Shown here: piece after piece, positions 5,373-39,810 of the stretch
Layout: each line of letters opens with the position of its first letter
Numbering within the stretch: the stretch's first letter is position 1
NCBI GenBank assembly: GCA_021846395.1
Contig: JAJZXB010000005.1
Span: 62,001-126,000, forward strand
Length of the DNA: 64,000 nt
DNA from: Thermoplasmata archaeon
Lineage (GTDB): Archaea; Thermoplasmatota; Thermoplasmata; Thermoplasmatales; Thermoplasmataceae
Direction: 5' to 3'
The notes under the pieces: generated by a model
What the model was told of the DNA's origin: nothing
Seen by the model: only the letters and a program-made list of their open reading frames with translations
Databases searched by the model: none
Translations under genes and position numbers: made by a program

Positions 5373-5579
5373 TAATATCGATAATTATATTTGGAGAAAG
5401 TATAAAAAAGTTTCTATTTTGTTGAATATTTTCTCCATCTTTATATAATAACAATTAGAGGTTGTAATTCAAATATTTATACAATTTGCTTAAAAAACTA
5501 TTTTTTGTTTATACATTTGTTCAATACAGCAGTAGTTCTACCTTTTAGAAAGTTTTACAATTAATTACGTTGTTAATTT

Positions 5580-6662
5580 TTAATATTTGCTTATGAGTGT
5601 TATAACATCCTCATCATTTACAGCATAATCCAGGCCAACACGCAATTCAATTTTCCTGCTTGGCCCTATTATGATTGCATACCTGAATGATGGTATCATT
5701 TCCCTGCTTATTTTCCTGCAAACATCACGCACGGTTGAGCCGAGGCTCAGAATCAAAGGGCGTTCATAATCCACATCGCCCGCCTTATTTTTCATGTAAA
5801 TCCTCACAAGATCCAGAGACCTATATATCATTGCCTTCATATTTTCAATGTTGTGGCCAGTTGTTGCAGATACTTCCATGTAATTGTCAAATTTCGATAA
5901 TTTCTCCTTTAATTTCTTTTCATCGTGCGGCATATCAATTTTGTTGACGACCAAAAATGATTTAATATATACTATATTTCCCTTAAAAAAATCAATTAAA
6001 TCATCCATATCCACTTTTTCCCTTATGTATATATCACCATTTACAACCCTGAATTCCTTCGCTATATCCCTGATATCCCCTTCATTTATATTGACCTTTC
6101 TGGGCTTGTGTATTTTTAATCCACCGTAATTTGTTTTTTTGAATGAAATATCCTTTCTTTTTTTATTTAAAACAATTCCGGATTTGTAAAGCTCAGAAAT
6201 TATTCGATCAAGACCCTTTGCATCGACATCGGTAACCATAACAATGAGCTCAACATTCCTGATTGTGCTAATTATCTCCCTGCCCCTTCCTGCACCTATG
6301 GCAGCATTGTCAATAATTCCGGGAAGATCAAGTATCTGAATCTGTGCCCCATTGTAATTGAGAGTACCCGGTATGACGGTGAGGGTTGTAAATGCAAAAT
6401 TGCCAACAATGCTTTTTTTGTTTGTGAGTGAGTTTAAAAGTGAGCTTTTTCCAACATTGGGATAACCCACAAGAGCTATGGTGGCATCCCCACTCTTTGA
6501 AACTGAAAAACCATAACCAGATGATTTCTTATGGGATTCCTCTTCAATCTCCAGCTTTGACATTCTGGCTTTTAAGATGCCAATATGCTTCTCCGTTGCC
6601 TTATTTTTCTGTGTTTTCTTTATTTCGTCCTCAATTTCCTTGATCTTCTCTTCTATAGTCAT
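5580..6662 (-). CDS. Drg/Rbg family GTPase with TGS domain
   Basis: A 360-residue OBG-class GTPase with an N-terminal basic helix-turn-helix region (residues 1-55). The GTPase domain has G1 GYPNVGKSSLLN, a switch region with TTLTVIPG, G3 DLPG and G4 NKID. A C-terminal TGS domain begins near residue 290 (RPLILSLGSTVRDVCRKI). Archaeal and eukaryotic Drg proteins bind translating ribosomes and are thought to help stalled elongation. The ATG overlaps the TGA of the upstream methyltransferase gene (ATGA), and the gene closes the long nurA-to-drg operon. Confidence 0.93.
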   Translation of the reverse strand: MTIEEKIKEIEDEIKKTQKNKATEKHIGILKARMSKLEIEEESHKKSSGYGFSVSKSGDATIALVGYPNVGKSSLLNSLTNKKSIVGNFAFTTLTVIPGTLNYNGAQIQILDLPGIIDNAAIGAGRGREIISTIRNVELIVMVTDVDAKGLDRIISELYKSGIVLNKKRKDISFKKTNYGGLKIHKPRKVNINEGDIRDIAKEFRVVNGDIYIREKVDMDDLIDFFKGNIVYIKSFLVVNKIDMPHDEKKLKEKLSKFDNYMEVSATTGHNIENMKAMIYRSLDLVRIYMKNKAGDVDYERPLILSLGSTVRDVCRKISREMIPSFRYAIIIGPSRKIELRVGLDYAVNDEDVITLISKY

Positions 6663-7201
6663 GTTCTCACTTTAAGCCTGTATAAAATAATTGATTCAAA
6701 ATCAAAATGTTCACATTTAACCCTTTCAAATGTGTATATCCTGTATTTTTCAATGAACTTTTCTACATTGGTTAAATCGGATAATATTATGTATATATTT
6801 CCATTTTTATTCAGATATTTATAAGCACTGTCAAGAAATTTTCCGGTAGTCCCAAAACCATCCTTTCCACCTGACCACTGAAGGCTTTCATTTTCAACCG
6901 GCAGATATGGGGGGTTGAAAATTATTGTATCATATATGCCATGAATATTTTCAAATAGGTTTGATTTAATTATATCCAAATTGGCGTGATTTTTTTTCGC
7001 ATTTTTCCCAATCAGGTCTATTGAATGCTCAGATATATCGGATGATGTTACATCGTATCCCTTTAACGCAAAAAAAATTGATATTATGCCGGTTCCAGCA
7101 CCTATTTCTAGGATCTTTCCTTCCGGTATAACATTATCGATAATTAAATATGTATCCTCCGCAGGTTTATAGACATTATCTGAATAATCTATATCCATCA
7201 T
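6659..7201 (-). CDS. HemK/Mtq2-like class I methyltransferase (probable release factor glutamine methyltransferase)
   Basis: A 180-residue SAM-dependent methyltransferase. The SAM loop is ILEIGAGTGIISIFFA and the catalytic motif is FNPPYLP, the NPPY signature of N5-glutamine methyltransferases. The opening VYKPAEDTYLIIDNV is typical of the archaeal/eukaryotic Mtq2 type, which methylates the GGQ glutamine of release factor aRF1 with help from Trm112. No Trm112 gene is in this window. The neighbouring translational GTPase supports a translation-related role. An ATG-ATG pair at 7201 leaves the start uncertain by one codon. Confidence 0.85.
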   Translation of the reverse strand: MMDIDYSDNVYKPAEDTYLIIDNVIPEGKILEIGAGTGIISIFFALKGYDVTSSDISEHSIDLIGKNAKKNHANLDIIKSNLFENIHGIYDTIIFNPPYLPVENESLQWSGGKDGFGTTGKFLDSAYKYLNKNGNIYIILSDLTNVEKFIEKYRIYTFERVKCEHFDFESIILYRLKVRT

Positions 7202-11042: not shown

Positions 11043-12595
11043 TATAAATCACCAAGAAGGCTCCTGTTCTTTTTCTTGATCTCATCTGGATCGTTCATTT
11101 TTCTCAGTTCTTCTCGTGCCTCACTCAGTAATCCTATGAGATCTATATCTGAACCTCCTGCCATTGTTTCCCTATCCCTTATTTTAATTATAACTGGCAT
11201 TTTGACAATTTCGCCGACAATTATTGCCTCACCGATATCCAGAGACGGAAGGTCTTCCATGAGGTACTGGGTGATATTTTCACTGCTTTCAAGGATAGCG
11301 TTCTGGTCAGATGGGTTGGTTACCCTTAAAATGATCTGTGAATTGCACTGGCTCAAAACATCTGAGTCTATTTTTCCTGGCCTCTGTGTAATCACAACAA
11401 GGAATATGCCAAATTTTCTTCCCTCGCCAGCTATTTTCTTTATCATTCCAGCTATTCCTGAATTTCTCCTTGGAGGCACAAAGTTATGCGCTTCCTCCAC
11501 AAAAACAAATACTGGGTACCTGAATTCCATTGAAAGCTTTGAATCATAAATTTCACTCAGAACCCTGAATGAAAAGTAATTTGCCAGAAACTGGTCCATT
11601 CCGGATAAATCCATTACTGACATTTTTCCAGGTGATAGATAGTCCTTTATTCCAGTGCTGTAATCCTCAAAAATACTCTTTATTTTATTCAAAAATGTTA
11701 GCCTTCCCTTTATTTTTTTATAATCTTCTACAGGTAGTTTTTCAGCGGTTTCAAGAAAGTCTGCCAGATCTTTTTTGCCCTTCATTTTCTTGTAGATATC
11801 ATCAACAATGGAGTTTAAATTTGTATAATTTTCCCTTATATCCATTATGCCCTTTATATCATCAGAACTCAGATCCTGAAATCTTATAGTGAAATTATTT
11901 ATAATTCCTATATCATCCTTTGTGTATCTTCCCGTGCTCAATGGTGTTCTGAATACGCCAACATTATTGGAATATATTTTGCCATCAGTTTTCTTTTTCA
12001 TGAAAACATAATCTGCATGTGGATCCAGAACTATAATTGAAGCCCCTTTTTTCAGAAGCTCTTCCATAATAACAGATGCTGTATGACTTTTTCCCGCTCC
12101 AGTCTGTGCAAGAATTGCAAGATGCCTTCGCAGGCCATTTATATTTACTGACACCCTGACATTATTATCGGGCAAATAGCCTATATTCAGTGATTCTTCC
12201 TCATTATACGAAAATATTTTATTCAATAATTCCTCGTCTGCCTTAAACACTGAAATTCCTGGCTTTATTATTTCCCTTGACTGGATCAAATTGTTTCCAT
12301 CAAATTTTCCCAGCACTGTTGATAAGCATATATTAACAAAATCATTTATATTGTTGTCTGTGTATTTTTTTATGCTTTCATAATCCATATTGTTGTTCAG
12401 CAAATCACTTTTTGATACTATCTCCTCAATTCTTCCGACTATTGTTTCACCGTTTATCTTTAAATAAACATATTCCCATTTCCTTATGCCCATATTGTCG
12501 GATATTACAAATTGAAACTTATTCGATGAGTTCTCTCCACTCGTATATCCTATTTCATACCCTGATTCTAACACGTCTTTCACCCCTTGTTTCAT
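11042..12595 (-). CDS. herA: DNA end-resection helicase/translocase HerA
   Basis: A 517-residue hexameric FtsK/HerA-type ATPase. An N-terminal HAS-barrel (roughly residues 10-110) precedes the motor domain with Walker A LAQTGAGKSHTASVI and Walker B VFVFVEEAHNFVPP. The arginine-finger region follows (GEGRKFGIFLVVITQRPGKI). It drives DNA into NurA for 5' strand resection. The start lies 41 bases inside the end of nurA in another frame, implying coupled translation. The first ATG is chosen because little sequence precedes the HAS-barrel. Confidence 0.96.
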   Translation of the reverse strand: MKQGVKDVLESGYEIGYTSGENSSNKFQFVISDNMGIRKWEYVYLKINGETIVGRIEEIVSKSDLLNNNMDYESIKKYTDNNINDFVNICLSTVLGKFDGNNLIQSREIIKPGISVFKADEELLNKIFSYNEEESLNIGYLPDNNVRVSVNINGLRRHLAILAQTGAGKSHTASVIMEELLKKGASIIVLDPHADYVFMKKKTDGKIYSNNVGVFRTPLSTGRYTKDDIGIINNFTIRFQDLSSDDIKGIMDIRENYTNLNSIVDDIYKKMKGKKDLADFLETAEKLPVEDYKKIKGRLTFLNKIKSIFEDYSTGIKDYLSPGKMSVMDLSGMDQFLANYFSFRVLSEIYDSKLSMEFRYPVFVFVEEAHNFVPPRRNSGIAGMIKKIAGEGRKFGIFLVVITQRPGKIDSDVLSQCNSQIILRVTNPSDQNAILESSENITQYLMEDLPSLDIGEAIIVGEIVKMPVIIKIRDRETMAGGSDIDLIGLLSEAREELRKMNDPDEIKKKNRSLLGDL

Positions 12596-13598
12596 AGAAT
12601 GTTATTCCTGTTGCCTTTTCGAAGGCTTTCATATAAACATTTTCCATTTCCTTTGACCTGAGCTTTACCTTTTTGTCAACATCCACAAGCCAGAGATTAT
12701 AAACCCGATAACTTGTATATCCATAGAATATCAAATTTATTATGCCCTCGTCAATGTTATATGGTGACTTGTTAGATGTCTCCTTCTGGAAATCCCTGTC
12801 AAGAATGTGTACCATCATTGGCAAATCCTCAACTTTCGGCAAAACATCAAATGATACGTAATTAACATCAAAACCCTCCAGTGTTTTTTTATACATAACT
12901 GGTGTTGTATATCCTTTTGAATGTGCCATGGATTTTATGATTGCATGATCATTTGGATATATTTTAATTTCCTTTTTTACTGATTCTGAGTTTAAATACT
13001 CTGGCCTGATTGAATTCAGCAAATAGTCTTTGAATTTATCAGAAAAACTGCTTTTTGCAATGAATATAAGCCTGATATTTTTATCGAATGCTTTTTTAAT
13101 CATTTCCCTTAAGGTTCTGAAATATTCTCCCATGAATGCCTGGTAATTATCTATTTTAAGGGTCTCGGTACTGTGTGAAAGTCTCCCCTCCAGAGAGCCA
13201 TCAACGAAGATATATTCTGGACTGTGTTTATCAAGAAGGTTTATTATTGATCTGTGCTCTGAGTATTCCATCAAGAGGATTGTGAATTTCATAAGTTCCT
13301 CAGGATTCACTGCAACCATATCAGTTTTAAAATGAGAGAATGTTTCATTTTTATATACGGTATATGCCCTGACAATTACAATATTTTTCCCAATATAAAG
13401 CATTCTTACAAATTCTGAGCTGTCCGTTGAGGCCACATCTATTCTTCCAGGGTCATGTGGGTTAAATTCATGAAAATTTCGATTGAATGCATCTTTAAGC
13501 AGCAGGTATATATCTGATTTTTCATCCATCTTCATTGATTTTCTTATCATTTCACGATTTTTATTCAGATAATCCATAAAATCCGAGAACGTATCCAT
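12555..13598 (-). CDS. nurA: 5'-3' nuclease NurA
   Basis: An RNase H-like nuclease of 347 residues from the ATG at 13598 (MDTFSDFMDYLNKNRE). The frame stays open upstream to 13706, but that part is a hydrophobic, low-complexity translation of promoter-like DNA, so the shorter start is preferred. The NurA metal-binding start motif is visible as IFVDGSLEGRL, and the late motif is in YNLWLVDVDKKVK. NurA acts with HerA, whose gene overlaps its 3' end. This gene heads the operon nurA-herA-mre11-rad50. Confidence 0.92.
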   Translation of the reverse strand: MDTFSDFMDYLNKNREMIRKSMKMDEKSDIYLLLKDAFNRNFHEFNPHDPGRIDVASTDSSEFVRMLYIGKNIVIVRAYTVYKNETFSHFKTDMVAVNPEELMKFTILLMEYSEHRSIINLLDKHSPEYIFVDGSLEGRLSHSTETLKIDNYQAFMGEYFRTLREMIKKAFDKNIRLIFIAKSSFSDKFKDYLLNSIRPEYLNSESVKKEIKIYPNDHAIIKSMAHSKGYTTPVMYKKTLEGFDVNYVSFDVLPKVEDLPMMVHILDRDFQKETSNKSPYNIDEGIINLIFYGYTSYRVYNLWLVDVDKKVKLRSKEMENVYMKAFEKATGITFYETRGERRVRIRV

Positions 13599-33414: not shown

Positions 33415-35163
33415 TCAATATAGAGAAACTATAACTATGATTGAAATAAAAGCAATTATCATGTATATCATGTATGTGCTTATTGAGCTGTTCATAATTT
33501 TATAACTTATGTACTTTGTTAATTTTCTGTAGGATGAGGCGATTCTTATCATGAAATACCAGAATATATCTACTGTCTCAAGATCACTTTTTCCACTGTT
33601 TGTTTTCAGTATTTTTTTCAGCATCAATCTTATATTGCTTGAGTATGTGAATGAATTGTATGTTTCATTGTTTTCTATACCGGTATTCCAGCGTTTAACA
33701 GTTCTTGTTTTTGGCTTTCCAAAGACAAGGTATGCAAGCAATGTGAAAAAAAGGGTTATAAGTACAACATATATTGGAGATAGCAATCCAAAATCAGCTG
33801 GGCCGAATCTTGATTCTATCATAAATCCATTGAAAATAAGAACATTTGGTATACCGGAAATATATTCTTTGCCTATCAATAAAAATGATATTGAGAATAG
33901 AAAAACAAGCATTACACCGGTTGAAAAAATTGTATATGTTTCCAGATTGTTTTTATTATTTTTTTTACTGTGATTATCCGTGAAATAATAAACTTTAAAC
34001 ATTGCTGCAGTGGCAAATCCCTCCCCCATTGCAAGTAATGATCCTCCAATTATTGAAGATATTCCTATTGCCCCCTGAATAAATGCCCCCATGAAGAATG
34101 ATTCAAGAATCATCCATGTCCCAAGGCCGCCAATACCTGGAAATAAGCCAGATAATGATGATAATATGAAGAATTTTCCCATTCTGGCTAGAAGTCCTTT
34201 ATTATCTGAAATGCCGCTGAAATATTCTGTCCCTGTATTGCCGATAGTTAAGAAAAGGCCTGTTTTTGCTATTGAATGAGACATTGCAAATATTAAAATT
34301 GATATCAAAACAAATGCCCTAAATATACCATCATTTATTGCAATATATAAGCCAAGAGCGGATAATAAGGTTCCATTGTTTTCTATAGTGCTGAACCCTC
34401 CCAGGGATTTCATATTTTCAGATATATATGCATACAGGGATCCAAACATAACAGAAATTATTCCTATTGCAATGAATAATATTCCAATTACTTCTGACAC
34501 CGGAGATAGCAAAGCAAGCTTTGTGATGCCATAAACACCCATTAGGGTCATCGTTGCACTGAATATGGCTGATGAATTTGCAGGTGCACTTCCATGGGCT
34601 ATTGGAAGCCATTCACTTATCATGAATGGAGTTAATCCCATCTTTGACATCGCCCCGAGGGTAAATATCAGTAAAACATAATCGTTGTTTATTTTATTGA
34701 ATCCAAAAGTTCCAGTGTAATAATATGATAATACAGCAGATACCATTATCAAAACGGTTGAAATTTCGGAAAAGAACATGAAAACATAGGCTTCTATGTC
34801 ATTTTTTTTATTTATTGCCACAGTTAAATACGCGGGTATTGACATTATTTCCCAGCCAGCTATGAATACCAGAAAATTGTTTGCATATAGTATTGTCATC
34901 ATTCCTGCAATGGTTAAAATAAATAGAGGAGCCAGCCATTTACCATAATTTTTGCCATATGATAATGAGTATATCGATGTTATTGTCCACACTATTCCTG
35001 CTATTAAATAAAAATATGTTATGTAATCAAATGTTCGATAGGTGAATGCTATGAAAATTATTGATGATACTGCGGATAATATATAACCCCAATTCCTGTA
35101 TTTTATTGATATTATGACAGAAACAAATATTAAAATTAATGGAAGGTAATATATGATATTCAT
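33415..35163 (-). CDS. Proton-translocating antiporter-like subunit (HyfB/NuoL-NuoN type)
   Basis: A 582-residue membrane protein with about 14-16 hydrophobic segments, last gene of the hydrogenase-related operon. The conserved core includes the glutamate in FIAGWEIMSIPAYL and the lysine-bearing LGAMSKMGLTPFMISEWLP. The HSIAKTG histidine/lysine motif near the middle belongs to the ion channel of Mrp-type antiporter subunits. A poorly conserved C-terminal extension follows. It would pump protons or sodium when the soluble arm passes electrons. Its ATG overlaps the end of the small-subunit gene by 4 bases. Confidence 0.88.
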   Translation of the reverse strand: MNIIYYLPLILIFVSVIISIKYRNWGYILSAVSSIIFIAFTYRTFDYITYFYLIAGIVWTITSIYSLSYGKNYGKWLAPLFILTIAGMMTILYANNFLVFIAGWEIMSIPAYLTVAINKKNDIEAYVFMFFSEISTVLIMVSAVLSYYYTGTFGFNKINNDYVLLIFTLGAMSKMGLTPFMISEWLPIAHGSAPANSSAIFSATMTLMGVYGITKLALLSPVSEVIGILFIAIGIISVMFGSLYAYISENMKSLGGFSTIENNGTLLSALGLYIAINDGIFRAFVLISILIFAMSHSIAKTGLFLTIGNTGTEYFSGISDNKGLLARMGKFFILSSLSGLFPGIGGLGTWMILESFFMGAFIQGAIGISSIIGGSLLAMGEGFATAAMFKVYYFTDNHSKKNNKNNLETYTIFSTGVMLVFLFSISFLLIGKEYISGIPNVLIFNGFMIESRFGPADFGLLSPIYVVLITLFFTLLAYLVFGKPKTRTVKRWNTGIENNETYNSFTYSSNIRLMLKKILKTNSGKSDLETVDIFWYFMIRIASSYRKLTKYISYKIMNSSISTYMIYMIIAFISIIVIVSLY

Positions 35164-35771
35164 TTAACACCACCCTTATATTTTAAAATTGCAGATATTA
35201 TGGTGTAGGGATCTGGCGGGCATCCGGCTATTTCAACATTGAATTTTTCATTTATTGAGGAGCCCAGTATGCCCCCAGATAATGCACATGAGCCGAAACC
35301 TATGATTATCTTTGGATCTGGCATTGCATCAAGGGCATCTATCATAACATCATGCATTTTCTCCGTGTAAACACCCATGAGCAAAAGAGCATCGGCATGC
35401 CTTGGTGTATTTGACAGAAATATATTGAATCTGTTTGCATCATACTGTGGGTAAAATATTGAATTGAATTCTGCATTGCAGGCACCGCATGTCCCTGAAT
35501 CCAGAGGATATATGTAAAGTGATTTTTTGAACATTTTGGGCAATTTATCATTTATTTTATATATTTTTTCATCCTTTGTGGGTTTTAAATCACATTTGCC
35601 GCAGTAAATACATTTGTTTTCATCCCATTCACCATTTTTTATGGCATTCACCGGACAATTGTAACCACTTTTGCCTTCCAGTCTTGATGGATAATCAGGC
35701 TTGAATTTATCATCAAAATTTTTCTCAGTTTTTATGCCTTTTTTTATGCCTTTCAAAAACCACTGGCTCAT
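35160..35771 (-). CDS. Small (NuoB/HyfI-like) subunit fused to an N-terminal 4Fe-4S ferredoxin-like segment
   Basis: A 203-residue iron-sulfur protein. The C-terminal two thirds form the small subunit of NiFe-hydrogenase/complex I relatives: SGTCGACNAEF (C95, C98), GFGSCALSGG (C162) and AGCPPDPYTII (C184) bind the proximal cluster. Before it, residues 37-62 carry YNCPVNAI (C39) and NKCIYCGKCDLKP (C54, C57, C60), enough for one more 4Fe-4S cluster. In Hyf and Ech complexes the ferredoxin-like subunit is separate (HyfH), so this looks like a fusion replacing it. It overlaps both neighbours by 4 bases. Confidence 0.88.
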   Translation of the reverse strand: MSQWFLKGIKKGIKTEKNFDDKFKPDYPSRLEGKSGYNCPVNAIKNGEWDENKCIYCGKCDLKPTKDEKIYKINDKLPKMFKKSLYIYPLDSGTCGACNAEFNSIFYPQYDANRFNIFLSNTPRHADALLLMGVYTEKMHDVMIDALDAMPDPKIIIGFGSCALSGGILGSSINEKFNVEIAGCPPDPYTIISAILKYKGGVK

Positions 35772-36922
35772 ATGAAATTCACCTCCTTTTCAGATATCCA
35801 GATGCCAAAGCTCTCCCATACGAAAAAAAAGTCCGTGAATATATTTCCAGGCATTGCCTTTTCGAACAGTTTAATGTTCAAATACGATGGTGATACCATT
35901 AAGATATCATTTATTCTTCCATCTTTTATATCTACATGATAAAATAAATCTCCCTGGGGCGATTCTATCCTTGCATATCCTGTGCCACTTTTATTCAGGT
36001 CATATTTATTTTTACTTTCATTTTCTTTTATTTCTGTGTTTTCTATCAATTCAATTGAGGAAAAAACCTCATCAGACCTTACCATGAACCTTGAAAATAC
36101 ATCGCCAGAGCTCCCTGTGAATATTTTATAAGATTCATAATATAATGAGCTGGAATCAAGCCTTGCATCATAATTATATCCTGATGCCCTTGCCGCTGGA
36201 CCGGTTGAATTCATATCCCTTACCGTACCATTTTCCTGTAACCTATCCATGAATATCTTTGATGTAAGCAGATCCTGATATATCACCATGAATTCATTTT
36301 TAATCTTCAGAATGCTTTCATTTAGATTATTGAAGTTGCCGTTGACATCATTTATATAATTTGCACCAAAGAAATATCTGTGCTTAAAAACTGTTGATAT
36401 TATCCTTGAAACGTCTTCGATCAAATATGACAGTTGTTTCTCCGGAATTGAAAATCCAGCGGATTCTGCCAGACATTTTATTACATGAAGGTTTGACCTT
36501 ATTCTTTCAAGCTCAATTTCAATTATCCTTTTATTGTTCGATTCACCGTTTTCTATATTCAATGCATTTTCCACCGCAAGCAAAAAGCATATTGAATTAG
36601 ATGCACTGTGATATCCATTGATTCTCTCTACTTTCAATAAAGCGGAATCCACGCTGTCATTCAATATTTTAATATTTCTTCTCTTAAATGATGAATCAAC
36701 CCTGACTGAATTTATTCTTTCCCCAGGTGTTATTATATTAAAATTCACGGATTCTTCCAGGCCGCCTGCAGAGGGGCCATAGTTGAATGTTATTTCCCCA
36801 GGAAGTTTTTTATTTATATCCTCTTTATTTTCCTCTGATATCCTTACTATTTCATTTGAATAAACATCGTAATTTTTATATCTGCCGATATATCTTCCAG
36901 TTTTTTTATTAAAGGATTGCAT
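35768..36922 (-). CDS. Large (HyfG/NuoD-like) subunit without the nickel ligands
   Basis: A 384-residue protein aligned by eye with group 4 hydrogenase large subunits and complex I NuoD. Visible markers are FNYGPSAGGLEESVNFNI, IEIELERIRSNLHVIKCLAE, STGPAARASGYNYDARLD, RIESPQGDLFYHVDI and MVSPSYLN. Where hydrogenases have ERICGIC it reads ERINGYH (residues 99-105), and where they have SFDPCxxC it reads SFGIWISE (371-378). All four Ni-Fe cysteines are gone, so it cannot be a NiFe hydrogenase. This matches hydrogenase-related (Ehr-like) complexes or a complex I-like quinone site. It overlaps HyfF-like by 14 bases. Confidence 0.87.
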   Translation of the reverse strand: MQSFNKKTGRYIGRYKNYDVYSNEIVRISEENKEDINKKLPGEITFNYGPSAGGLEESVNFNIITPGERINSVRVDSSFKRRNIKILNDSVDSALLKVERINGYHSASNSICFLLAVENALNIENGESNNKRIIEIELERIRSNLHVIKCLAESAGFSIPEKQLSYLIEDVSRIISTVFKHRYFFGANYINDVNGNFNNLNESILKIKNEFMVIYQDLLTSKIFMDRLQENGTVRDMNSTGPAARASGYNYDARLDSSSLYYESYKIFTGSSGDVFSRFMVRSDEVFSSIELIENTEIKENESKNKYDLNKSGTGYARIESPQGDLFYHVDIKDGRINDILMVSPSYLNIKLFEKAMPGNIFTDFFFVWESFGIWISEKEVNFI

Positions 36923-38234
36923 TTATCACCACCAGAAATATTATGCCTGTTGCTATTGATATTATACCGGAAATTAAGGATATAATTGATCCTGAACTTT
37001 TATTATATTCATATTTTCCACGGAATATCATTCTTGAAACATTCAAATTTATTGAAACAAAAGCTATGAATAATGAAAATACAATTATTATGAACTGGGC
37101 ATAGAAATGTATGCTCAAAACAGAATATAAAATCAAAAATTCACCAAAAAATGTCCCGTATGGTGGGGTCCCCGTTACGGCAAATGAGGATAACAGCAAT
37201 GAAGCGGATATCCTTTTATTCTCTATAAATCCCGATATTGCATTAATTTCCTTTGTTCCAGATATGTGCAGTATGTCCCCTGCTGTATAGAATGCACCTG
37301 CTTTACCAAAGCTATGAGACAGTAAAAGCAACAGAGAGCCAATCAGGCCTATTTCTGTTCCGGTGCCCATGCCTATCAATGCAATATTCATGTTTTCCAT
37401 TGTTGAATACGCAAACATTCTCTTGTAATTGTGCTGATAGCTCAAAAATATGGCTGCAAATAATACTGATACTGTTCCTGCCCATACAAATATCATTCTC
37501 ATTGGAAATATTTCATATATCCTGTATAAAACATAAAGCGCTGTTGGCAGTAAAACACCTGAAAACATGGCACTTACTGGTGCAGGCCCCTCACTGTGTG
37601 CATCTGGCAACCATGTATGCACTGGAAATATGCCTACTTTAGTTCCGAAACCTACGAGGGCTATGCCAACAGCGAGTCTTACCGTCAGTGTATTGGAAAT
37701 TTTCTCTGCAAGTATTGTGGTAACAGTTAAGGTACCAAATGAATAATAAATTAAAATTACCGATATAAATGCAAATGTCACACCGGCAGAAACTATTATG
37801 ATATAACGCCATGTTGCTTCTAAAGAGGTATCGGATTTTTCCGTTATTAACAGCAATGCTGATGATATTGTCGTCGTTTCTATGCCAACCCACATGAAGC
37901 CATAATTATTTACCATTAGTGCAAATTCCATGGCAACATAAAAGAAATTCATTAAAAGATAATACATATTCTCTGAAATTCCCCTATTTTTAATATCACG
38001 CACATATTTTCTTGAATACAGTACGGACAGCAAATATATTGAACTAACCATTAAAACAAAGATGAATGTAACAGTGTCTATATAAAAAAACCCCCTGTAT
38101 GGATTCAATAAATATAATGGAATGAGCATAAAAATCTCTATTATCGCGCCAATCGCGGAAGAATTTTTTATATTTTTATAGAATATTGACGCAATTAAGG
38201 GTATAATCAGTATAATTAAAGGGATTATGATCAT
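36909..38234 (-). CDS. Antiporter-like membrane subunit (HyfF/NuoN type)
   Basis: A 441-residue protein with about 13 membrane segments. Key residues of the ion channel are visible: the glutamate in WVGIETTTISSALL and the lysine and histidine in GFGTKVGIFPVHTWLPDAHS. The HSFGKAGAFYTAG histidine/lysine comes later, and the late segment ends GTPPYGTFFGEFLIL. This is the HyfF/EhrD-like partner of the proton pump. It overlaps the HyfE-like gene by 4 bases. Confidence 0.88.
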   Translation of the reverse strand: MIIIPLIILIIPLIASIFYKNIKNSSAIGAIIEIFMLIPLYLLNPYRGFFYIDTVTFIFVLMVSSIYLLSVLYSRKYVRDIKNRGISENMYYLLMNFFYVAMEFALMVNNYGFMWVGIETTTISSALLLITEKSDTSLEATWRYIIIVSAGVTFAFISVILIYYSFGTLTVTTILAEKISNTLTVRLAVGIALVGFGTKVGIFPVHTWLPDAHSEGPAPVSAMFSGVLLPTALYVLYRIYEIFPMRMIFVWAGTVSVLFAAIFLSYQHNYKRMFAYSTMENMNIALIGMGTGTEIGLIGSLLLLLSHSFGKAGAFYTAGDILHISGTKEINAISGFIENKRISASLLLSSFAVTGTPPYGTFFGEFLILYSVLSIHFYAQFIIIVFSLFIAFVSINLNVSRMIFRGKYEYNKSSGSIISLISGIISIATGIIFLVVINAIL

Positions 38235-38872
38235 CCTCTCAACTCCTCCATTTTTTCATGCACATTCTTTTCTATGCTTATTACCGAAAATATCACCACT
38301 AAAATCAAAACGTCAAGAAAAACACTGCTTTCTATAATTATTGGGACGGGCAACAAAAATACTCCAAGAATTATCAGGGAATTTTCCTCCTCAACATATC
38401 CAAGAACCTGGGCTATTGTTCTTTTTCTTGAGGCTATTAAAAATAATCCCTGGAAAAATAACAGTAATGGAAATAATAAAATATTCTTTACAGGGTATGT
38501 TATCGTAACAATATGTATAAATGATATTGAATAAACAATGAATATTGATATTATAATGAATATAAAATCAAGTATTAACATATATGTTGTACTAACCTTA
38601 GATTCATAGACATAACTCAAACTTCTTGGTATTTTATTTATGAGGAAATATGTTACTAAAATAACCCTTAAAAATATTACAAGAATTCCTAAAATAATAA
38701 ATGTATAGCTGTCTAAAATGATTCCAAAAATAAATGATATTAAGGCAATCATTGAAGATTGAATGGCAAGCCCTAAAACCATTGACCTTAGATATTTTTC
38801 TGATTGAATGTGGAATCCAGTTATTGCCAGAAATGCAGCAATTAAATAAATAATAGTATACATTATATTCAT
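38231..38872 (-). CDS. HyfE/MnhC-NuoK-like membrane subunit
   Basis: A 213-residue protein with about seven hydrophobic segments. RKRTIAQVLGYVEEENSLII is the recognisable HyfE pattern (a QLxGxLxxENG-like segment), where the glutamates are expected to lie within the membrane and take part in proton movement. The end of the preceding HyfC-like gene overlaps its start by 4 bases. Confidence 0.8.
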   Translation of the reverse strand: MNIMYTIIYLIAAFLAITGFHIQSEKYLRSMVLGLAIQSSMIALISFIFGIILDSYTFIILGILVIFLRVILVTYFLINKIPRSLSYVYESKVSTTYMLILDFIFIIISIFIVYSISFIHIVTITYPVKNILLFPLLLFFQGLFLIASRKRTIAQVLGYVEEENSLIILGVFLLPVPIIIESSVFLDVLILVVIFSVISIEKNVHEKMEELRG

Positions 38873-39810
38873 GAAATCACCTCAGTGAGTATTAAAAACA
38901 GTATTGAAAATATGAATGCAACCGCCAAATAATCTATAACCTTAAATAATCTGAGTTTAGCCATTGACGTATCAATTATTAAAACTATAAAGATCAAAAA
39001 TAACCATTTTAAAACCATAACTGGAATATTTAATAAAAATCCTGGAAATGTATTTGTTATTCCCCATGGAATTAAGAAAACATTTAAAAGAACCGATCCT
39101 AAAAGATATTGTTTCATATAGGATGACCATTTGTTTATCCCCAGAAGTTTCCCGCTGTATTCATAATCTATGCCTGAATCTATCATGCCCATTTCCTGCT
39201 TTCCCTCACTCTGTGTTGGTATTTTTCCAGTTTCGTATAAAAATATCATGAAGAATGCAAATATTGCAAATAAATGAACCAGGCTCAAATTGGATAATGG
39301 GTGGCTTATTAAATAATTATTTGTTGCATATGGATTGTCAGTTCCCGTTATTAATGCAACGGCAAAAAATACAGTTATCAATGCACCCTCGCTGAAAAAA
39401 TTGAATGACAGTAACCTTGATACACCCATTGAAGAAAAATTACTCCCTGAATCCATTGTTCCTGCTATTTTTATAAATGCTGCTAAAGAAAATAAAATTG
39501 CACCCGCAAAGAAATCACCAGATGCGGTAAAAATTATGGGTTTTGACATGAATACTGGAATTATAAGGGCAATTAATGAATAAACACCAAAAGCTGCATA
39601 TGGTGCTATTATAAACATTTTTGATGAATTTTCCGTAATCAATGTTTCTTTTTTTAATAATTTAAAAAGGTCATAATATGGCTGAAATATACTTGACCCA
39701 TGCCTTGATTCCACATTTGCCTTTAATCTTTCAAAAATCCCTATAAAGAGTGGTGAAACGAAAACCACAAAGAGATACTGAGATAATGTCTCCACAATCA
39801 ATTCAAGCAT
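38869..39810 (-). CDS. HyfC/NuoH-like membrane anchor subunit
   Basis: A 313-residue protein with about eight hydrophobic segments. It is the first gene of the operon. The conserved loop ETGKIPTQSEGKQEMGMIDS, followed by GIDYEYSGK, corresponds to the NuoH/EchB loop that contacts the soluble arm. RLKANVESRHGSSIFQPYYD near the N-terminus is the usual opening loop. In the whole operon no NuoE, F or G-like NADH module is found. Confidence 0.88.
   Translation of the reverse strand: MLELIVETLSQYLFVVFVSPLFIGIFERLKANVESRHGSSIFQPYYDLFKLLKKETLITENSSKMFIIAPYAAFGVYSLIALIIPVFMSKPIIFTASGDFFAGAILFSLAAFIKIAGTMDSGSNFSSMGVSRLLSFNFFSEGALITVFFAVALITGTDNPYATNNYLISHPLSNLSLVHLFAIFAFFMIFLYETGKIPTQSEGKQEMGMIDSGIDYEYSGKLLGINKWSSYMKQYLLGSVLLNVFLIPWGITNTFPGFLLNIPVMVLKWLFLIFIVLIIDTSMAKLRLFKVIDYLAVAFIFSILFLILTEVIS

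Follow-up and report, generated by a model that had tools for sequence, protein, structure and literature searches.

In a 64,000-nucleotide stretch of the genome of a Thermoplasmata archaeon (hereafter the window; GenBank assembly GCA_021846395.1, contig JAJZXB010000005.1, positions 62,001 to 126,000), six minus-strand genes at positions 33415-39810 encode a membrane complex that we assign, from the sequences of its subunits, to the energy-converting hydrogenase-related (Ehr-type) members of the complex I / group 4 hydrogenase superfamily. As judged from alignments and domain profiles, the Thermoplasmata branch to which it belongs retains neither the nickel site of the large subunit (LSU) nor its 30-kDa domain, and on this evidence the complex is predicted to be incapable of making hydrogen in the normal way. 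With a probability of roughly 60%, we consider the system as a whole to be explained by an Ehr-type, ferredoxin-driven proton pump with an electron acceptor seated in the former nickel pocket.

The genome carrying the window is of approximately 1.66 Mb and Ferroplasmaceae-like. Families were assigned through Pfam and NCBIfam profile matches to the translations of open reading frames, and the genes follow the order HyfC, HyfE, HyfF, LSU, small subunit (SSU) and HyfB, with neighbors overlapping by 4 or 14 bases each:

38869..39810, minus strand: HyfC/NuoH-like membrane subunit, 313 aa, operon gene 1 (PF00146, 4e-32).
38231..38872, minus strand: HyfE-like membrane subunit, 213 aa, with a 4-base overlap with HyfC (NCBIfam hydrogenase-4 membrane subunit, 1.6e-8, under the cut-off).
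36909..38234, minus strand: HyfF-like antiporter-type pump subunit, 441 aa (PF00361, 4e-47; NCBIfam hydrogenase 4 subunit F, 574 bits, over the cut-off).
35768..36922, minus strand: LSU (NuoD/HyfG/EhrL-like), 384 aa, lacking nickel cysteines as well as the 30-kDa domain (PF00346, 1.3e-20; no PF00329).
35160..35771, minus strand: SSU (NuoB/HyfI-like), 203 aa, with a ferredoxin-like region for a single cluster fused at the N terminus (PF01058, 1e-18).
33415..35163, minus strand: HyfB-like antiporter-type pump subunit, 582 aa, last operon gene (PF00361, 1e-21; NCBIfam hydrogenase 4 subunit B, 625 bits, over the cut-off).

These coordinates and families agree with the first-pass annotation of the window, which had read the region as six overlapping HyfC-, HyfE-, HyfF-, HyfG-, HyfI- and HyfB-like genes. 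Because the hydrogenase-4 subunit F and B matches lie far over their cut-offs, annotation pipelines will name the operon hydrogenase 4.

The same annotation had claimed that the hydrogenase motifs ERICGIC and SFDPCxxC have become ERINGYH and SFGIWISE, with replacement of all four nickel cysteines. Both motifs read exactly so, and alignment places N102, H105, W375 and E378 of the LSU at the four cysteine positions:

36608..36628, minus strand: former L1 nickel motif, LSU residues 99-105, ERINGYH (hydrogenase ERxCGxC).
35789..35812, minus strand: former L2 nickel motif, LSU residues 371-378, SFGIWISE (hydrogenase SxDPCxxC).

Among 37 close LSU homologues (34 of them distinct), none has a cysteine at any of the four positions. 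N102 and W375 are found in 37 of 37 and H105 in 35 of 37, and E378 is likewise retained in 35, with Asp in the remaining two, yielding a pocket signature of the branch's own (ERxNGxH / ESFGIWxSE). Across the wider branch the pocket drifts, H105 being replaced by Phe or Tyr and W375 by Val, Tyr and others, and the acidic residue at 378 (Glu/Asp) is the steadiest position. Isolated LSU sequences in this wider branch carry single cysteines, and the four-cysteine pattern appears in none.

Neither the four NiFe-binding cysteines of a [NiFe] group 4 hydrogenase (CxxC + CxxC) nor its complement of Hyp maturation genes and C-terminal protease was recovered. The absence of hyp genes had been remarked for the window and was pursued more widely: genome-wide searches found no HypC or HycI and only a partial HypA match (20.2 bits, where the cut-off is 28.9), and HypD gave no match over the cut-off in 77 genomes of the family. 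The hydrogenase large-subunit profile PF00374 has no match at threshold anywhere in the genome, so that no second LSU with intact cysteines, which could have belonged to the complex, was found by this search. Since all four cysteines are absent and neither a maturation system nor a second cysteine-bearing LSU was found, the complex is not a NiFe hydrogenase, as the first-pass annotation had held.

Phylogenetic analysis places the complex with the Ehr group, bearing out the earlier suggestion that it is Ehr-like. In a tree of 71 LSU sequences, sampled without a curated Ehr set, Mbs/Mbx or methanogen Fpo and with reference Ehr LSUs picked by motif and gene order, the window LSU falls within a clade of 60 cysteine-free proteins (support 100/100) that is sister to Hyf/Hyc (100/96) and lies outside Nuo and the NiFe hydrogenases. 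Ehr-type LSUs from bacteria and archaea diverge deepest in this clade, within which the Thermoplasmata set is a derived branch. The clade persists once the motif columns are removed from the alignment, which rules out an artefact of shared cysteine loss. Constraining the Thermoplasmata set to group with Nuo, in this tree without methanogen FpoD, worsens the likelihood by 88 log units (approximately unbiased (AU) test, p = 0.0004). His38 and Tyr87 of Thermus Nqo4 are quinone-binding residues of complex I; they align with E56, a variable position, and G103 of the window LSU. The AU test and the absence of both quinone residues rule out membership in Nuo. Of the phylogeny proposed at first pass, the Ehr grouping and the separation from Nuo were thus obtained, the LSU did not fall inside Nuo with a known quinone site, and Mbs and Fpo lay outside the sampling of the tree.

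Like the Ehr complexes of Rhizobium, Mycobacterium, Nitrospira, Sulfobacillus and ammonia-oxidizing archaea, the window complex combines HyfB, HyfC, HyfE and HyfF with an LSU and an SSU, has no nickel cysteines and contributes its LSU to the same clade, where the Thermoplasmata branch stands apart by its own pocket signature. It differs in the 30-kDa (NuoC-like) domain, which is present in the reference Ehr LSUs and absent from the window LSU, and which is a feature of the references compared here rather than part of a published definition; PF00329 was found in loci L074, L109 and L110, falls below threshold in L102 and has no match in the window LSU. HyfB is encoded last both in the window and in an operon on a Mycobacterium branderi plasmid, whereas it comes first in the Rhizobium and archaeal Ehr operons.

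The residues expected of a redox-driven pump have been retained. Relative to the Hyf of Escherichia coli and bacterial Ehr, HyfF keeps E119, K199, K271 and K311, and HyfB keeps E105, K174 and K300; the acidic E-channel residues D47, D99, E141, E193, E206 and E217 of HyfC are kept with respect to E. coli HyfC and Ehr, and alignment shows E163, E181 and D187 to be kept in HyfE. The first-pass statement that ion-pump residues are conserved therefore holds for all four membrane subunits, and their retention suggests that the complex would couple redox chemistry to ion translocation.

The SSU contains eight conserved cysteines, which we assign to two putative [4Fe-4S] clusters:

35592..35657, minus strand: predicted N-terminal [4Fe-4S] ligands C39, C54, C57 and C60 (CP...CIYCGKC), at least 90% conserved in 40 homologues.
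35478..35489, minus strand: predicted proximal [4Fe-4S] ligands C95 and C98, invariant in the SSU homologue alignment.
35286-35288 and 35220-35222, minus strand: predicted proximal [4Fe-4S] ligands C162 and C184, respectively, invariant in the SSU homologue alignment.

The sequence match of the SSU covers approximately the C-terminal two-thirds. The additional N-terminal region, which holds C39, C54, C57 and C60 and gives weak ferredoxin-type Pfam matches, resembles half a ferredoxin. A region of this kind is also present at the N terminus of the SSU of the M. branderi plasmid operon (L110:9120-9914), where the N-terminal cluster cysteines are kept and the proximal ones are lost (DTGSNGSDEW, GTDAISGG, PGAPASP), so that the usual electron wire to the LSU seems broken in that protein. 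In three order-level relatives (L065, L069 and L071, in f2) the N-terminal cysteines are rearranged, e.g. KDCGFSCINSCMNGCE, and the cluster may be altered.

Structure models point in the same direction as the profile matches. The AlphaFold2 model of the LSU (predicted local distance difference test score, pLDDT, 92) has as its best PDB fold match HycE of the E. coli formate hydrogenlyase (7z0s_E), followed by 49-kDa subunits of complex I and Pyrococcus Mbh, and we conclude from the model that the LSU adopts the 49-kDa/hydrogenase large-subunit fold. The SSU model (pLDDT 89) best matches HycG of the same complex (7z0s_G), and the Mbh small subunit was also matched.

Measured against the nearest relative, the ratio of nonsynonymous to synonymous substitution rates (dN/dS) is 0.006-0.084 across all six genes, and all complete relatives examined from the Thermoplasmata branch share the same gene order. 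The closest LSUs are those of a Thermoplasmata metagenome-assembled genome (84-85% identity), Acidiplasma aeolicum (66%) and Ferroplasma acidarmanus (58%). Because dN/dS is low (about 0.07) and the operon recurs across Thermoplasmata, its sequences indicate purifying selection on a maintained enzyme. A pseudo-hydrogenase in decay, retained merely as a proton leak or antiporter, would account for the loss of all four catalytic cysteines; the low dN/dS and the intact cluster cysteines rule out a decayed hydrogenase, the operon is intact throughout the order, and this explanation is strongly disfavored.

The distribution of the operon has several further features. Two genomes of the family (G276, L045/L049; G342, L043/L052) contain two paralogous copies, and the presence of both operon forms in them suggests two distinct roles. 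In genus g4 the operon occurs only in G075 and is absent from G043, G082, G138 and G198, all estimated to be 98-99% complete, indicating that it is dispensable in some lineages. One locus of a Thermoplasmata genome (L079, in G304) encodes an Ehr-type LSU and a separate group 4 hydrogenase LSU within 13 kb (5521-7107 and 12002-13084), the latter grouping with cysteine-intact large subunits.

In the mechanism we propose, electrons would come from ferredoxin reduced by 2-oxoacid:ferredoxin oxidoreductases; two genes with a POR gamma domain are present in the genome, so reduced ferredoxin is probably available. Within the SSU, the N-terminal [4Fe-4S] cluster would take up electrons from ferredoxin and relay them to the proximal cluster, from which they would reach an acceptor bound among N102, H105, W375 and E378, and their arrival would drive proton translocation through HyfC/HyfE and the antiporter-like HyfF and HyfB. 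Tentatively, and at somewhat less than even odds, we favor as the likeliest acceptor a membrane quinone, bound differently from that of complex I and without the usual His and Tyr, with sulfur compounds or an unassigned cofactor as alternatives. Operation in reverse, with the large inward proton gradient used to reduce ferredoxin, would be plausible in iron-oxidizing acidophiles.

The position of the LSU in the Ehr clade and away from Nuo, the retained gene set and order, the conservation of pocket residues, pump residues and SSU cysteines, the failure to find nickel-site maturation genes, the predicted LSU fold and the probable ferredoxin source all support a ferredoxin-driven Ehr-type pump, as do the M. 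branderi operon, with its matching gene order and SSU N terminus, and published Ehr complexes devoid of CxxC motifs. Several considerations weigh against it. The acceptor and the direction of electron flow are inferred, the LSU lacks the two canonical residues with which complex I binds quinone, and the genome already encodes a Nuo complex that would reduce quinone. Related Ehr genes (L073-L076) occur in lineages that we take to be quinone-less gut methanogens. Moreover, no conserved neighboring gene was found among 20 loci beyond lineage-specific ones, so that the neighborhood points to no partner, be it a formate dehydrogenase or another enzyme.

The complex might instead be a functional second complex I, that is, a quinone-reducing Nuo/Fpo relative minus its donor module. 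The 49-kDa subunit is indeed the best Pfam family of the LSU, E378 matches a Glu of NuoD (GEVDR), and the genome's own NuoD also has Asn at the position of N102. Against these similarities stand the tree and the AU test, the missing quinone His and Tyr, the presence of HyfE, a Hyf/Ehr-type subunit, and the fact that the genome's own NuoD is encoded elsewhere, in a separate Nuo operon on another contig for which no accompanying NuoF was found in the genome; we regard a second complex I as unlikely. Yet more doubtful is a pump of the Mbs/Mbx type, with sulfur compounds (polysulfide or sulfide-linked carriers) as its substrate in place of quinone. Sulfur metabolism is common among Thermoplasmatales. 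Pyrococcus Mbx also offers the precedent of a ferredoxin-driven pump related to hydrogenases (PMC6349859). However, the phmmer matches of the LSU to PDB entries favor Mbh (1e-15) over Mbs (0.002; Mbs being outside the tree), the operon has no Mrp-type antiporter set and no partner gene is conserved nearby.

The near-invariance of N102, H105, W375 and E378 in the close clade, which a simple relay would not need, invites the reading that another metal or cofactor, liganded by H105 and E378, occupies the pocket and carries out an uncharacterized reaction. The variation of H105 and W375 in the wider branch and the lack of any conserved accessory or insertion gene beside the operon argue otherwise, and we think this quite unlikely. 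Similarly low is the chance that the four residues constitute a new catalytic center with its own metal or substrate, which would give a redox-driven pump a chemistry new to the complex I superfamily.

Compared with characterized systems, the Ehr-type complex of the window is closest in fold to E. coli hydrogenase 4 and formate hydrogenlyase (Hyf/Hyc), which form the sister LSU clade and share its subunit types; these keep the four nickel cysteines and have separate polyferredoxin subunits, and Hyc is accompanied by neighboring hyp/hycI maturation genes. Pyrococcus Mbh/Mbs share the group 4 core fold, and Mbh is among the top solved relatives. Mbh carries Mrp-type antiporter subunits, which are missing from the window operon, and it keeps the nickel cysteines. 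Complex I (Nuo/Fpo) has a homologous core (NuoD, NuoB, NuoH and antiporters) and Glu at the last cysteine position; it differs in forming a separate clade, in its quinone His/Tyr and in having separate NuoJ and NuoK where the window encodes HyfE.

Yelton et al. (2013) reported that the putative group 4 hydrogenases found in Thermoplasmatales from acid mine drainage are devoid of both Ni-binding motifs and possibly have another function (PMC3750248). The missing motifs are therefore an already published core point, and the putative group 4 hydrogenase described there for F. acidarmanus and other Thermoplasmatales of such drainage is very probably the same operon. The main text of that paper has nothing on subunit, pocket, Fe-S or Ehr placement. 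As far as the cited papers show, the new findings are that the complex belongs in the Ehr clade, that its LSU has lost the 30-kDa domain, that its SSU has a one-cluster region fused to it and that a conserved signature replaces the nickel motifs.

Ehr complexes without CxxC have been described in Sulfobacillus, comammox Nitrospira, ammonia-oxidizing archaea and lineages sibling to Cyanobacteria (PMC4378227, PMC10284858, PMC10432482, PMC6349859). They occupy a middle position, with hydrogenases on one side and respiratory complex I on the other, and this literature assigns them no function. The Thermoplasmata branch represents a stripped-down pump, with six proteins, no 30-kDa domain and a predicted two-cluster wire, and its operon occurs in culturable acidophiles (Ferroplasma and Acidiplasma). 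Annotations such as 'hydrogenase 4' or 'putative hydrogenase' in these archaea should not be taken as hydrogen metabolism, and an identified acceptor would show what a nickel pocket can become and by what route quinone chemistry like that of complex I could emerge.

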